Positions 1 through 36,851 of a stretch of DNA of 41,881 bases are shown here, one piece after another (positions within the stretch are counted from its first letter, which is position 1; the number at the start of each line of letters is the position of its first letter). Origin of the DNA: Rhodospirillaceae bacterium (GTDB lineage: Bacteria > Pseudomonadota > Alphaproteobacteria > UBA828); NCBI GenBank assembly GCA_018666805.1, contig JABIXB010000099.1:1-41881 (forward strand), read 5' to 3'. The translations under genes were made by a program, and so were the position numbers. The notes beneath the pieces were generated by a model. The model did not search any database, was not told the origin of the DNA, and worked only from the letters and a program-made list of their open reading frames with translations.

Positions 1-915
1 CAAAACGTTGGTCGGCATGTTGTCGACCATTTGCGCCAGGCGATTGGCCTCGGCGTCGGCCTTGACCTTGGCGGTGACGATATTCCAGGTCGGCATCGGG
101 CCGAGATAGTCGCCGTTTTTGTCGTTAATGGCTGAAACCTGCAAGTCGAGAGTTTCCTCGCCAAGCGAGATCATCGCCTGATGCGGCAGGTTGGCCGGGT
201 CACTGAGGAGGCGGCGCTGATGCGACGGCTCCTTATGGAAGATATCGATCGAGCTTCCGACCAAATCGTCGACCTGGATCGGCAGCAGATGCTCAAGCGT
301 ACTCAGCGTGTCCTTACTGGTCTTGTTGGCATAGACGATCTTGAATTCATCATGGGGGTCGGCCATCAAAACGTTGGTCGGCATGTTGTCGACCATTTGC
401 GCCAGGCGGTTGGCCTCAGCGTCGGCCTTAACCTTGGCGGTCACAATACTCCAGGTCAGCATCGCTTTGGAATAGTTGCCATCGGCGTCATAAACAGCCG
501 AAATCAACAAATCCAATGTCTCTTCACCAAGACTAATTATCGCCTGATGCGGAAGATTGGCTGGATTGCTCAGCAGATTGCGCTGGTGCGACGGATTCTC
601 GTGAAAGATATCGATCGTCTGGCCCAGCAAATCGTCCGGCGATATCGGCAACAGATGCTCCAGCGTTTTCAAAGTCGTCTTTGACGTCTCGTTGGCAAAG
701 ATAATCTTGAACTCATCGTTGGGATCGCAGAGCAACACATTGATCGGCATTGCGTTGACCATAAGCTCAAGCTCATCGATACGGGCCTGCAAGGCCGATG
801 TGGACGGCCCCTTGGGTTTACTCGCGGCCTTGGCCCGGCGCGGTGCGGACTTTGAGGTGCCGGATTTCGACAGTGATTTACGTGAACTTGACTTTGCGGC
901 GGAGCTTCTGGGCAT
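1..915 (-). CDS. Tandem-PAS sensory protein, 3' end outside window
   Basis: This frame is open for 305 codons from ATG at 915 to the window edge with no stop, so only the N-terminal part is visible. A GGAAG ribosome binding site lies just upstream. Residues 1-40 are a Ser/Lys/Arg-rich low-complexity tail. Then come 122-residue repeats starting near residues 52, 174 and 296 with motifs such as NAMPINVLLCDP, TLEHLLP, IDIFHENPSHQR and NPANLPHQA. This is the PAS repeat found in soluble methyl-accepting chemotaxis proteins and related sensors of Rhodospirillales. No membrane segment or signal peptide is visible, so it is probably cytoplasmic. The output domain (chemoreceptor signalling, kinase or other) lies outside the window, so the function is sensory by inference only. 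Repeats two and three are almost identical at the DNA level where both are visible. Confidence 0.85.
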   Translation of the reverse strand, partial: MPRSSAAKSSSRKSLSKSGTSKSAPRRAKAASKPKGPSTSALQARIDELELMVNAMPINVLLCDPNDEFKIIFANETSKTTLKTLEHLLPISPDDLLGQTIDIFHENPSHQRNLLSNPANLPHQAIISLGEETLDLLISAVYDADGNYSKAMLTWSIVTAKVKADAEANRLAQMVDNMPTNVLMADPHDEFKIVYANKTSKDTLSTLEHLLPIQVDDLVGSSIDIFHKEPSHQRRLLSDPANLPHQAMISLGEETLDLQVSAINDKNGDYLGPMPTWNIVTAKVKADAEANRLAQMVDNMPTNVL

Positions 916-27866: not shown

Positions 27867-30800
27867 ATGCATAAAGTCCTGAAACTTATCGTTCACATCG
27901 CCGCGGCCACATTCGGCAGCCTGGCAATTATATTCGCTGTGGCGTCATGGCGTTTGTCGAGTGGCCCGATTTCGATCGGCTTTCTCTCGCCTTATATCGA
28001 GGAAGCGTTTGAATCGGAGGATTTGAGCTACCGCCTCGAATTCGAGGATACCATTCTGACCTGGGCCGGATGGAACAGATCGCTCGATATTTTGATCACC
28101 GATGCGCACGCGGTTGGGCCCGAGGGCGAGGTATTGGCATCCGTGCCGAAGATTTCCCTCGGCCTCAGCGCGCTTTCGCTGCTGAAAGGGCAAATTGCGC
28201 CAACCAGCGTTGAGTTGCTCCACCCGGAAGTTCACCTCGTCCGCAATCTCGACGGCGGGTTGGAATTCGCTTTCGGTTCCGAATTCGAAGAACCCGATGA
28301 AACGGTAAATGAGCTGATTGCGGATTTCCTCGCCGCGCCCGGCACGGATCATCCGCTCGGTCAGCTCAAACGGATCAGCATTCTCTCGGCCGCATTGCGG
28401 GTTGACGATGAATTATTGGATCTGTCCTGGCACGCACCGGAGGCGGATTTAATTTTTGACCTTTATAGCGATCGAATTGATGGCGAACTTCTGGCCGATA
28501 TTGAAGTTGCCGATGTTGCGCTCCGGGTCGTTGCGGCAACCGCGCTTGAGCGCGCCAACGGAAAGGTCCACACCAACATCCAATTTGGCGAGGTGGTGCC
28601 CGCGAAACTGGCCGCAATTTCGCCCAAGCTGGATGCGCTTAACGCTTTCAAGCTACCGATCTCAGGCGCTTTGGAATTTACCCTCAACCAGAACGGTAGT
28701 TTGACCGACAGGATAAGTTTTGACCTGGCCGGCGGCGCCGGTTCTCTGATGGTGCCGAAGATTCTACCCGCCCCGCCGAACATCGCCTCACTGCGGTTGC
28801 AGGGTGACGCGGACGCAAATTTTGATACGCTCAATCTCGCAAGTTTATTTATCGACACCGGCGGACCGACATTTAATTTCTCCGGGCAATTGTCAGGAAT
28901 TTCCGACCAGACTGCTATTAGCGGCACATTCGAATTTACGGAAATGCCGTTTGACGATCTAAAAAATTATTGGCCCGACACGCTGATGACGAACGCCAGA
29001 AGCTGGATATTGGGCAATGTGTTTGACGGCGTGCTTTCAAATTTCACCGTCGATTTCGATATCAAGCCGGGTGAAATCGACCTGGTACAGAGCGGCGCGC
29101 GCCCCAATGCAATTGATGTCGATTTTAGTTTTCGTGATGCCACCGTAAATTATTTCCCCGAACAACCTTATGCCTTTGGTGTGGATGGCGAGGGCCATGT
29201 CGATGGCGCCAGCCTATCCATGAACATGCGCGACGGCACGATCGAGAATATGTACGCACCGAGCGGTGTCGCTTTGATCACCGATCTGATGCTTGATTCA
29301 GCAATGTTGACGATTATCGCCAATGTTGAAGGCCCGGCCGATAACGCGATCAGTTTGCTGGACGGTCCGAGGTTTGGCTATCCCAGTAAAATGGGCCTGA
29401 AGGGCGAACAATTCAGCGGCCATGTGATCGCCGAAATGGGGGTGCAATTGCCCTTTCGTAGCGATGTTACATTCGAGGAAGTGCAATTCGCTGCCGTTGC
29501 GCGCCTCGACGATCTCAACGTCCGCGATTTGTTCGGCGACTATGACGTAAGCAACGGGCAAATGCGCCTCACGCTGGACGAGAACAATATGGAAGTCGGC
29601 GGATCAATTGCTGTTGAAGGCATGCCCGCCGAAGTGAAATGGATTGAGAACTTTTCGCCCCAGGCGCCATTCCAAAGCCGCTACGATATTTCCGCGGTAT
29701 TGGACCAGCAGGCGCGCGAGACCTTTGGTGTCAATGTGGCGCCATTCGCCAGCGGGCCGTTCGATATGAATTTCACATACACCGTCTCGCCGGACGGCGC
29801 GCAGCATATTGCAGCCGCCCTTGGCGCCGAGGACGCACTCATTGAAATTCCTGAACTGTTCTGGGAAAAACCGATCGGCGAGCGCGCCTCGATCCTCGTT
29901 CTGGCGCGCCTTGAAGATCATAAAAATGTCGAGGTTACGAATTTCGAATTGAATTCAATGGACCTCAGGGTCAAGGGGCGGGCCGAAATTGGCCCGCAGC
30001 ATGGCAACCTGATTAGCGCCGAGTTGAGCAGCGTCCAACTCGGAGACAATGATGTGACGGTCAGCTACAAGCGTGATGCCGACGACAACATCGTTCTTGA
30101 TGTCGGTGGCAAAAGTTTGGATTTGCGCCCCTATATCAAGCAGTTGCGCGATACGGATCAGGATAATCTGCCGCCATTTATTCTTGAAGCCAATGTCGAG
30201 CGCCTGATTACCCGTGCCGATCAGCAGATTACCGATGCGCGCGCGCGCGCCGTTAATACCGCCGAGCGCCTGGAATCGGCAATTCTCATCGGCACGCTCA
30301 CCTCGGGCTCGGAATTTCGTCTCGTTCTCGAACCCGATGGCGCGGCCAAGCGCCGCCTGGTTGTGCGTTCAAACGATGCCGGCTCCGTCGCCCGGGCGTT
30401 CAATATTTATGACGATGTTATCGGCGGCAGTCTGGTGCTCGACGCGACCATCCATGACGATCAGCCGGGTGCTCCAGTAGAAGGCGAAGTTCGAATTGAG
30501 GACTATAAGGTCATCAATGCGCCCACATTGGCGCAAATTCTGGCGGTCGCCTCCTTCACCGGCATATTTGATGCCCTGCAGGGCGAAGGCATCACATTTT
30601 CCAACTTCCATCTGCCATTTTCTCTGAAGGACGGCATTGTGACTGTCGAACGCGCGCAAACCGCCGGTTTCTCGATCGGTGTAAACGCTTCGGGTAAGGT
30701 TAATCTCGACAATGGCAGGGTAGACATGCGCGGAACCATCGTTCCGGCTTACGCGCTCAACAGTATTCTCGGCAATATCCCCTTGATCGGCGATCTATTG

Positions 30801-31010
30801 GTCGGCGGCGAGGGCGAAGGTATTTTTGCCGCAACTTTCTCGGTAAAGGGCACCACGGAAGAGCCGAAAGTGACGGTCAATCCGCTTGCCGCACTGGCGC
30901 CTGGATTCCTCAGAAACCTGTTCTCTATATTCGACGGGGAAAGCGACGTAACTGGCGACGAAGTTGAGGAGCCGGAGATCGTACAGCCGCGGCCCGAAAC
31001 GAACCGTTAG
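27867..31010 (+). CDS. AsmA/YhdP-like envelope protein (DUF3971, AsmA C-terminal)
   Basis: A 1047-residue protein with an N-terminal membrane anchor (about residues 8-28) and a long periplasmic part rich in beta strands. The middle part has DUF3971-like features (NYWPDTLMTNARSWILGNV) and the C-terminal part is AsmA-like (NIPLIGDLLVGGEGEGIF, then FSVKGTTEEPKVTVNPLAAL). YhdP, TamB and AsmA proteins form bridges thought to move phospholipids between the inner and outer membranes. The divergent glnE gene and convergent DsbA-like gene give no functional clue. The acidic Asp/Glu-rich C-terminal end (EEPEIV) is typical. Subfamily (YhdP-like) is my best assignment. Confidence 0.85.
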   Translation: MHKVLKLIVHIAAATFGSLAIIFAVASWRLSSGPISIGFLSPYIEEAFESEDLSYRLEFEDTILTWAGWNRSLDILITDAHAVGPEGEVLASVPKISLGLSALSLLKGQIAPTSVELLHPEVHLVRNLDGGLEFAFGSEFEEPDETVNELIADFLAAPGTDHPLGQLKRISILSAALRVDDELLDLSWHAPEADLIFDLYSDRIDGELLADIEVADVALRVVAATALERANGKVHTNIQFGEVVPAKLAAISPKLDALNAFKLPISGALEFTLNQNGSLTDRISFDLAGGAGSLMVPKILPAPPNIASLRLQGDADANFDTLNLASLFIDTGGPTFNFSGQLSGISDQTAISGTFEFTEMPFDDLKNYWPDTLMTNARSWILGNVFDGVLSNFTVDFDIKPGEIDLVQSGARPNAIDVDFSFRDATVNYFPEQPYAFGVDGEGHVDGASLSMNMRDGTIENMYAPSGVALITDLMLDSAMLTIIANVEGPADNAISLLDGPRFGYPSKMGLKGEQFSGHVIAEMGVQLPFRSDVTFEEVQFAAVARLDDLNVRDLFGDYDVSNGQMRLTLDENNMEVGGSIAVEGMPAEVKWIENFSPQAPFQSRYDISAVLDQQARETFGVNVAPFASGPFDMNFTYTVSPDGAQHIAAALGAEDALIEIPELFWEKPIGERASILVLARLEDHKNVEVTNFELNSMDLRVKGRAEIGPQHGNLISAELSSVQLGDNDVTVSYKRDADDNIVLDVGGKSLDLRPYIKQLRDTDQDNLPPFILEANVERLITRADQQITDARARAVNTAERLESAILIGTLTSGSEFRLVLEPDGAAKRRLVVRSNDAGSVARAFNIYDDVIGGSLVLDATIHDDQPGAPVEGEVRIEDYKVINAPTLAQILAVASFTGIFDALQGEGITFSNFHLPFSLKDGIVTVERAQTAGFSIGVNASGKVNLDNGRVDMRGTIVPAYALNSILGNIPLIGDLLVGGEGEGIFAATFSVKGTTEEPKVTVNPLAALAPGFLRNLFSIFDGESDVTGDEVEEPEIVQPRPETNR

Positions 31011-31016
31011 AGAAAT

Positions 31017-31661
31017 TTAGCCGCTCGCCGCTTCGTCGGGCTGCAGCGCGAGGTCGAACACCTGAGAAAATACTTCCGGCCCCTGCGCGCCGGAAACAGC
31101 GTATTTGCCGTCGAATATAAAGCAGGGCACGCCGGATATACCGAGCTGTTGCGCCTCGCGGGTTTCGGCGAGTGTTTGCTCGACACCCTCTTCGCTGGCG
31201 AGATAGGCTGCGGCCTCGGCTTCATCCAGCCCGGCCTCGCCGGCGACGGCAGCGAGAACATCGATATCGCCGATATCCTTGCCTTCCTCGAAATAACAGC
31301 GAAACAGGCCTTCGACCACGCTGTCCTGGCGGCCAAGTTTTAACGACCAACTGATCAGCCGGTGTGAAGCAACGGTATTGGGAACGCGTGTAATGGCGTC
31401 GAAGGCAAACGGAATTTTCTCCACCTCGCCGGCTTGCTCGATCGCCTGGTAGATTTCTGCAGCTTGCTCATCGCTGCCGAATTTTGCCCGCATATAGGTC
31501 TCCCGGTCGAGCCCAGCCGCCGGCATTTGCGGATTGAGCTGGAATGGCCGCCATTCGATATCCGGGATAATTTCAGGGCGCTCGGCCAACGCGCGTTCGA
31601 AGCGCCGTTTGCCAACGAAACACCAGGGACAAACCGTGTCCGATACGATTAAAACTCTCAT
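31017..31661 (-). CDS. DsbA-family oxidoreductase (FrnE-like)
   Basis: A 214-residue thioredoxin-fold protein with the CPWC active site at residues 11-14 (SDTVCPWCFVGKRRFE) and the cis-Pro region GISGVPCFIF followed by the family ending VSGAQ. There is no signal peptide, so it acts in the cytoplasm, like FrnE-type disulfide isomerases or 2-hydroxychromene isomerase relatives. ATG 31661 directly before the fold is preferred to an in-frame ATG at 31682. Its stop is 6 bp from the stop of the AsmA-like gene. The substrate is unknown. Confidence 0.9.
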   Translation of the reverse strand: MRVLIVSDTVCPWCFVGKRRFERALAERPEIIPDIEWRPFQLNPQMPAAGLDRETYMRAKFGSDEQAAEIYQAIEQAGEVEKIPFAFDAITRVPNTVASHRLISWSLKLGRQDSVVEGLFRCYFEEGKDIGDIDVLAAVAGEAGLDEAEAAAYLASEEGVEQTLAETREAQQLGISGVPCFIFDGKYAVSGAQGPEVFSQVFDLALQPDEAASG

Positions 31662-31685
31662 GGCGCGAAGTATAGCCGCCAACGA

Positions 31686-31758: not shown

Positions 31759-33102
31759 CTACGCCGCGTTGGCGGCCAATGCAGTTGATAAGGCGCGCCC
31801 GATCAAGTCTTCCACTGAATCACCTGATTTGTATTCGGCGCTGCCAATGCTCGGGTGGATTTTCACCGGAGTGGCGATCTCAATGAGAGAATATTCGGTG
31901 AAACCCAATACGCCGGCCATTCGCTGCATCGTCGGGCTTGTCGCTTTAAGCGGGCTTTCCGGCAAGGCGATGCAGAATGTTGTGTCGTCGAGTCGGGCGC
32001 ACAAGTCTTCACCGCGTACCAGGCGCGAAATCATGCCGCTCAACTGCTTCAATAAATGGTCCGCCGCGCTGTCGCCATACTCACCGCGGATTTGGTTGAC
32101 TTCGGGCACGGCAATCACATTGAGAGAGAGCGATTTGTCCCAGCGCTCGGCATCCGCCACCAAGGTCTGCAAATGCTGGCGGAAAAATTCAGCGCTATAG
32201 AGCCCGGTGGTGTCGTCGCTCATCGCATGGTTTTTGCCGGCGCGATAGGCGTTCAACATATGACCGCGCAGCCGGTGTGAGCGAACGCCCATCGTCGCCC
32301 GCGCGCGCAATTCGTCGCCATTGAGGGGCAAGGAAAATGCCGCCGTCGCGCCGTGCTGATAGGCTTGCGCGATATGCTCAGGATCGGCCGAACAAACCGT
32401 CAGGATCGGCATGTGAAAGAGAGTGGGGTTGCGCCGGATATCGTCGCAGGTATCGAGCGCCGCCTGAAAGTTGTCATTTTCCGAGATCACGACAAATTCT
32501 ATATCGGAGCCGCTGAGAGTTCCGAGAACATTGCTGCCAAGCCGCTCCGTTTCCAAGCGGGAAAATCCCTTCAAGGCTTCCTCGACACCGTCGTCACTGG
32601 CGCCGTCGCCACGCGCCAACAGGATATGGGGAGGATTGTCGGACTTCTCGGCATGCCAATTGTCGGCGCTGCCGGCGCCGAAAATGCGCAAGGTTTCATT
32701 TCTCCGGTTGAGCTCCGAGCGCATGGTGCCAAGACGCAGTGCGGCGCTCACATGCGCCTGAACCTGCTCGTCGCCGAACGGCCACTCGATCACTTCGTCA
32801 AACTGGGTGACAAATTCCTTGGACCAATCGGGCGCCCCATTTTCACCAATCATCAGGAGAATCGGGATATCGCATGATTCGTCGGAAGATTTAAGGTCGG
32901 AAATGATGCTCGCGCAGCTGCGGTCATTGAATTCGAGCCCCAAAAGCATAACTTCGGGGCGCTCATTTTGTGCCCGGCTGATCGCCTTGGAGGCGGATGT
33001 TTCGAGTAAATTTACCAAGCCAAGCCGGCGTAAACATTCGCTGACGAGATTAAGCGTTTTGAGGTTTCCGTCCGCAACCAGAACACGGGCCGAATTCACC
33101 AT
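31759..33102 (-). CDS. REC-REC-GGDEF protein with degenerate catalytic sites, PopA-like
   Basis: A 447-residue protein with PleD architecture: receiver 1 (about 5-122), receiver 2 (about 157-275), a short linker and a GGDEF domain (about 293-447). In receiver 1 the phosphoacceptor position is Gly55 (VMLLGLEF) and only one acidic pocket residue (Asp11) remains. In receiver 2 the same position is Ser207 (FVVISEN). The GGDEF signature reads LDDTTF (371-376), so cyclase activity is not expected. The inhibitory-site motif RxxD is intact as RGED (363-366), five residues before the signature. This is the pattern of Caulobacter PopA, a c-di-GMP receptor that helps CtrA degradation. The cell-cycle role here is inferred. 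GGGGA precedes the ATG. Confidence 0.85.
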   Translation of the reverse strand: MVNSARVLVADGNLKTLNLVSECLRRLGLVNLLETSASKAISRAQNERPEVMLLGLEFNDRSCASIISDLKSSDESCDIPILLMIGENGAPDWSKEFVTQFDEVIEWPFGDEQVQAHVSAALRLGTMRSELNRRNETLRIFGAGSADNWHAEKSDNPPHILLARGDGASDDGVEEALKGFSRLETERLGSNVLGTLSGSDIEFVVISENDNFQAALDTCDDIRRNPTLFHMPILTVCSADPEHIAQAYQHGATAAFSLPLNGDELRARATMGVRSHRLRGHMLNAYRAGKNHAMSDDTTGLYSAEFFRQHLQTLVADAERWDKSLSLNVIAVPEVNQIRGEYGDSAADHLLKQLSGMISRLVRGEDLCARLDDTTFCIALPESPLKATSPTMQRMAGVLGFTEYSLIEIATPVKIHPSIGSAEYKSGDSVEDLIGRALSTALAANAA

Positions 33103-36521: not shown

Positions 36522-36851
36522 ATGGCACGGAATTCAAACGAATTGTTCAAGCGGGCGACGGCGGAAATTCACGCGCTCGGCGACGAGATAACGGAGCGCA
36601 AATCAGCCGAAGCGGGGGGCAACACGCTCACCGCCGAAATGCGTGCCGCGAGCGCCATGTTGCGCGCTGGACTTGAATGTCACGGCAAAGAAGCGCGCGG
36701 CCTCAGCCTGAATATGTTGGCCAATACGCTTAATGCGGCACAGGATTCGGAAAAGCATCCTGTCCACAACGGGCCCAACGGTCTGCGCATACGCGCCCAA
36801 GCGGACAAGATGGTGCAGGCCACGTTGGACGCCGAGAGCGCAACCCGCTAG
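36522..36851 (+). CDS. Small orphan protein, 109 aa
   Basis: A 109-residue soluble protein, mostly predicted helical, with no signal peptide, membrane segment or known motif. Ala is abundant; the middle (MRAASAMLRAGLECHGKEARGLSLNM) has one Cys. Codon use agrees with neighbouring genes and GGGGA precedes ATG by 6-7 nt, so it is probably real. I do not recognise a family. Its TAG stop is formed by the left end (CTAG) of the palindromic element at 36848-36954, so the original C-terminus may have differed. Confidence 0.65.
   Translation: MARNSNELFKRATAEIHALGDEITERKSAEAGGNTLTAEMRAASAMLRAGLECHGKEARGLSLNMLANTLNAAQDSEKHPVHNGPNGLRIRAQADKMVQATLDAESATR

Follow-up and report, generated by a model that had tools for sequence, protein, structure and literature searches.

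A PopA orthologue with a degenerate active site and a retained c-di-GMP I-site in a genome of the Rhodospirillaceae

Introduction

In Caulobacter crescentus, PopA is a c-di-GMP-dependent adaptor of ClpXP: it binds c-di-GMP at its I-site, contacts RcdA through its N-terminal part, and brings substrates such as CtrA to ClpXP that has been primed by CpdR (PMC8973945, PMC12564702, PMC11519897). A second role, in flagellar filament length, has been described for monomeric PopA together with SmrF (PMC8973945). According to a 2022 review, PopA is restricted to Caulobacter and related species; of the two works on which the review draws here, one is a comparative study whose main text makes no mention of PopA (PMC2877005). 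For Hyphomonas neptunium, a popA gene (HNE_1984) with 25% identity to Caulobacter PopA has been listed with synteny, and CtrA is present there, its proteolysis being reported as not regulated (PMC7200025).

Here we analyse a gene from a member of the Rhodospirillaceae whose product resembles PopA of C. crescentus and C. vibrioides (CC1842, CCNA_01918) in its domain order and in its degenerate A-site. It also resembles PleD (PDB 1w25, NF007135) in architecture, ancestry and I-site residues, but differs from it in having lost the phosphoacceptor, the conserved lysine, the metal ligand and the GGEEF signature. A first-pass annotation of the DNA had described the product as a PopA-like c-di-GMP receptor. 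We ask how close the kinship to PopA is, which residues have been kept and lost, and what partners the genome encodes.

Results

A PleD-like gene under purifying selection

The window, by which we mean the whole stretch of 41,881 nucleotides under analysis, contains on its reverse strand a gene at positions 31759..33102, with an ATG start codon at 33102, whose 447-amino-acid product consists of two receivers and a GGDEF domain and aligns with PleD over its full length. Pfam recognises the GGDEF domain with 69.8 bits, and receiver 1 with 27.7 bits, slightly below the cut-off of 30.2; in C. vibrioides PopA, Pfam recognises no receiver at all. The best NCBIfam match is PleD (NF007135), full-length, with 142 bits against a cut-off of 474, and the best solved relatives, again full-length, are structures of PleD (PDB 1w25). 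Against the same NCBIfam model C. vibrioides PopA reaches only 98 bits, and no PopA model was seen among the NCBIfam matches. Since matches to the PleD model thus fall below its cut-off and no PopA model was seen, orthologues of PopA are easily misfiled under PleD or diguanylate cyclases. The genome of the window (G000) encodes a separate, intact PleD (G000:C30, 592 bits).

Orthologues from the same genus are 62-68% identical to the window protein, and relatives elsewhere in the family 34-43%. Comparison with the same-genus orthologues, where synonymous sites are unsaturated, gives a dN/dS of about 0.17. The gene is therefore under purifying selection, and this value, together with the same-genus identities, places the reading frame beyond chance. 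PADLOC returned no matches, Rfam returned none within the window, and a scan for promoters and terminators yielded matches at chance level only. A further reading frame of 109 amino acids, at 36522-36851, is without a Pfam match.

Phosphorylation sites, active site and I-site

The alignment to PleD allows each functional residue to be assigned. PleD residues D9, D10, D53, T83 and K105 correspond to D11, G12, G55, I85 and W107 in the window protein, so that D10, D53, T83 and K105, by which a phosphorylatable receiver 1 would be recognised, are all replaced; the codons for residues 54-56, with Gly55 in place of the phosphoacceptor Asp, lie at 32935..32943 (coordinates counted from the start at 33102; this and the following codons are on the reverse strand). 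In receiver 2 the phosphoacceptor position is occupied by Ser207 (codon at 32482..32484), which aligns with Asn202 of Caulobacter PleD and is Ser in most PleDs. The active-site signature G368-G-E-E-F372 of PleD is D372-D-T-T-F376 (31975..31989), and the metal ligand D327 is replaced by A331; with DDTTF and a PleD score of 142 bits, below the cut-off of 474, the protein lacks the marks of PleD, and its A-site is catalytically degenerate, as expected of a PopA. In contrast, the I-site is intact. PleD R359-x-x-D362 corresponds to R363-G-E-D366 (32005..32016), the third I-site residue R390 to Arg394 (codon at 31921..31923), and the I-site is separated from the A-site by five residues in both proteins.

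These assignments confirm what the first-pass annotation had read from the sequence alone, namely Gly55 and Ser207 at the two phosphoacceptor positions, a degenerate GGDEF signature, and an RGED at residues 363-366 in the register of an I-site. It had also raised the possibility that some other Asp takes over a phosphoacceptor position. A structure model places the third receiver strands at residues 51-56 and 203-207, so that no alternative Asp is predicted at the phosphoacceptor position of either receiver; the model has a mean pLDDT of 52, which is too poor for fold searches, and we used its strand register alone.

The same annotation had taken the loss of both phosphoacceptors to go beyond what a simple PleD copy would show. 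For receiver 1 this holds, as the loss there is derived. The receiver-2 position, however, is Ser in 16, Asn in 6 and Asp in only 1 of 23 PleDs, and the loss in receiver 2 is therefore inherited from PleD and not an additional one.

The window protein groups with Caulobacter PopA

An authentic PopA was needed for comparison. We traced a C. vibrioides genome through its PleD, which is 100% identical to the PleD of the solved structure, and searched it with the family profile, whose second match is PopA, its I-site reading RVED and its active site degenerate. Counted from a start that lies two codons downstream of the published one, its residues are D53, R355 and D358; the published numbering has D55 and R357.

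We then computed a maximum-likelihood tree of 70 proteins, comprising 23 PleDs and 47 rows on the side of PopA (the window protein, C. vibrioides PopA, and 45 other second paralogues, the PopA of a near relative included). The two sides are split with a support of 100/100, and the window protein falls on the side of C. vibrioides PopA. Because the tree has no root, gene order and the RxED signature described below are also needed to argue that the PopA side is monophyletic.

Gene order separates the two sides as well. Directly downstream of the window gene and on the same strand lies a gene of the DsbA family (PF01323, with a CPWC motif; 31017..31682, reverse strand), whose true start may be an in-frame ATG at residue 8. 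The same pair occurs at the popA locus of C. vibrioides (L127). Across the tree, a same-strand dsbA directly follows the gene at 38 of 46 PopA-clade loci versus none of 22 PleD loci, many of the latter with only about 1.4 kb of downstream sequence (two with less), which is enough for an adjacent gene. Beyond dsbA the loci differ: the window, like others in its family, has a YhdP/AsmA-like gene convergent to dsbA (27867-31010), whereas Mfd occupies this place in Caulobacter and in many other families.

The window protein is only 24% identical to C. vibrioides PopA, so that its function could have shifted, and it has Gly55 where the Caulobacter protein keeps the receiver-1 Asp. The two share the RxED I-site, the equivalent of R390, the downstream dsbA and the same side of the tree. 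Tree, gene order and residue retention agree in supporting the assignment of the window protein as an orthologue of PopA, and the earlier description as PopA-like can be raised accordingly.

What the PopA clade keeps and what it loses

We next consider whether the losses in the window protein are peculiar to it. Among the 47 PopA rows, the receiver-1 Asp is kept in 12 and absent in 35; Lys105 is found in none, versus all 23 PleD rows; and no row combines D10, D53 and K105. C. vibrioides PopA itself keeps the receiver-1 Asp and has lost the acidic pair and the Lys. In the GGDEF domain, the metal ligand D327 is kept in 14 of the 47 rows; at the catalytic position E370, 4 rows have Glu and 15 have Asp.

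The I-site behaves differently. R359 is invariant in all 47 rows, D362 is kept in 46, and at R390 there are 44 Arg and 3 Lys. All 47 PopA rows, but none of the 23 PleD rows, have Glu at position 361, so that RxED may serve as a motif for recognising PopA-type receptors. When 37 sequences are aligned, just six columns are invariant, among them R363 and E365. The secondary I-site residues (R178 and R313 of PleD) vary within PleD itself, and their loss is not counted as evidence. Overall, the PleD set has 88 invariant columns, of which 8 reach at least 93% conservation in the PopA clade; for the GGDEF domain the figure is 3 of 36, and the three columns are R359, D362 and R390. The PopA clade may thus be regarded as a natural experiment, in which a GGDEF domain has shed nearly all residues conserved in PleD save three that bind its product.

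To judge from these alignments, members of the PopA clade generally lose everything except the I-site, and the window protein is not peculiar in this. We have accordingly dropped the idea that the loss of both phosphoacceptors sets this protein apart, the one loss being common in the clade and the other inherited.

Distribution across the Alphaproteobacteria

A PopA profile, with the threshold placed in the gap between scores of 357 and 344 bits, finds PopA in at least 46 of 387 alphaproteobacterial genomes, from 22 families. This count is a lower bound, as divergent PopAs left out of the profile may score below PleD. When the Caulobacteraceae are left out, for example, their PopAs score below PleD; profile score alone therefore fails to separate very divergent PopAs from PleDs, and we do not rely on it for this purpose. 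On the evidence of gene order, the tree and the diagnostic RxED motif, PopA is far wider in the Alphaproteobacteria than the 2022 review says, extending to at least 22 families.

RcdA, CpdR and CtrA

The first-pass annotation had named RcdA, CpdR and CtrA as the partners to be sought. Two of them are encoded in the window's genome: RcdA (PF07323; G000:C109) and CpdR (G000:C10), the latter covering 119 of 120 positions and scoring 171.6 bits where the cut-off is 180. The third, CtrA, was not found. The CtrA model gives no match at 1e-60 in this draft assembly, and with a same-genus CtrA as query the best full-length match is just 38% identical, whereas the same query has an orthologue of 84% identity in a different genus of the family. 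Nor was CtrA found in the draft assemblies G006 and G011 (100% and 98% complete). Because the assemblies searched are drafts, two or more of which derive from metagenomes, the absence of CtrA from the window's genome is probable, not proven. It follows that the role in guiding CtrA degradation, which the earlier annotation had described for Caulobacter PopA, cannot be transferred automatically.

Among 21 genomes of the window's family, 7 have both PopA and RcdA, 1 has PopA alone, 1 has RcdA alone and 12 have neither. In the full set of 387 genomes, where the corresponding numbers are 31, 15, 112 and 229, the two genes are associated (p = 1.3e-5, shared ancestry ignored). Detectable RcdA is absent from 15 of the 46 PopA-bearing genomes, so this partner is not universal.

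Discussion

We consider it quite likely that the window protein is a paralogue of PleD that has turned into a receptor for c-di-GMP and serves the adaptor chain of CpdR, RcdA and ClpXP. Its GGDEF domain would have lost c-di-GMP synthesis and, as its strict retention of R363, D366 and R394 suggests, would bind c-di-GMP through these residues. The receivers would no longer be phosphorylated and would serve as a platform for protein binding, the N-terminal one docking on RcdA by analogy with C. vibrioides. Produced by PleD and other cyclases, c-di-GMP would bring PopA into the CpdR-RcdA-ClpXP chain, and this recruitment would time the destruction of substrates, which are here probably proteins other than CtrA, since CtrA was not found in the genome. 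Ligand binding, contact with RcdA and the proteolytic role are all inferred, and the logic known from Caulobacter is the best reading because both the ligand site and the partner genes have been kept.

Two other readings would deny the protein its role as a dedicated receptor. It might be a decaying copy of PleD that has merely inherited its I-site; RxxD is indeed ancestral in PleD, and the active site has been lost in many different ways. Decay, however, is hard to reconcile with a dN/dS of about 0.17, with a GGDEF domain that has let 33 of 36 PleD-invariant columns drift and held on to precisely the three of the I-site, or with a single clade that spans 22 families with conserved gene order, and we regard it as highly improbable. 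We give equally little credence to the idea that some catalytic activity has been retained or regained, or that the degenerate active site binds another nucleotide. Activity is known for some degenerate sites, such as that of the AGDEF cyclase of Vibrio cholerae (PMC3974145), but in the window protein the signature has lost both its glycines and both its acidic residues, and the metal ligand D327 is replaced as well (DDTTF, A331).

A more serious alternative, though still an unlikely one, agrees that the protein is a c-di-GMP-binding orthologue of PopA but has it act outside proteolysis, for instance on polar flagellum or envelope machinery, with the link to RcdA incidental. The 15 PopA-bearing genomes that lack detectable RcdA are in keeping with such a role, as are the failure to find CtrA in the window's genome and the action of monomeric PopA with SmrF on filament length (PMC8973945). 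On the other hand, a divergent RcdA may escape the Pfam model, and of the 9 genomes in the window's family with PopA or RcdA, 7 have both.

Returning to the adaptor reading, we propose only tentatively, and with more doubt than belief, that the window's lineage has kept the c-di-GMP-gated proteolysis of PopA, RcdA, CpdR and ClpXP in the absence of CtrA. If true, PopA would be an ancient adaptor of the whole class, with no need for CtrA to have been its first substrate, and its Caulobacter role would be one use among several. The assignment of the window protein to PopA is well supported. What extends the known picture is the breadth of PopA across the class and its persistence where CtrA was not found, and lineages without apparent CtrA offer places in which PopA may be tested.

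Several sequences related to these partners deserve mention. The window's genome encodes a second CpdR-like single-receiver protein of 123 amino acids (L170; G000:C301:7402-7713). It also contains a CtrA-like receiver fragment (L222, about 480-848, reverse strand; G000:C121:9479-9847), 47% identical over 123 residues, which we did not count as CtrA as it contains an internal TAG; it is possibly the remnant of a CtrA-like regulator. In G002 the copy of CtrA carries an in-frame stop. This same-genus CtrA (L186, 4107-4643; G002:C15) is interrupted by a TAA after 178 residues, beyond which the profile match runs on, and the stop may reflect either decay or a sequencing error. The gene adjoins flagellar genes and a ChpT-like gene.
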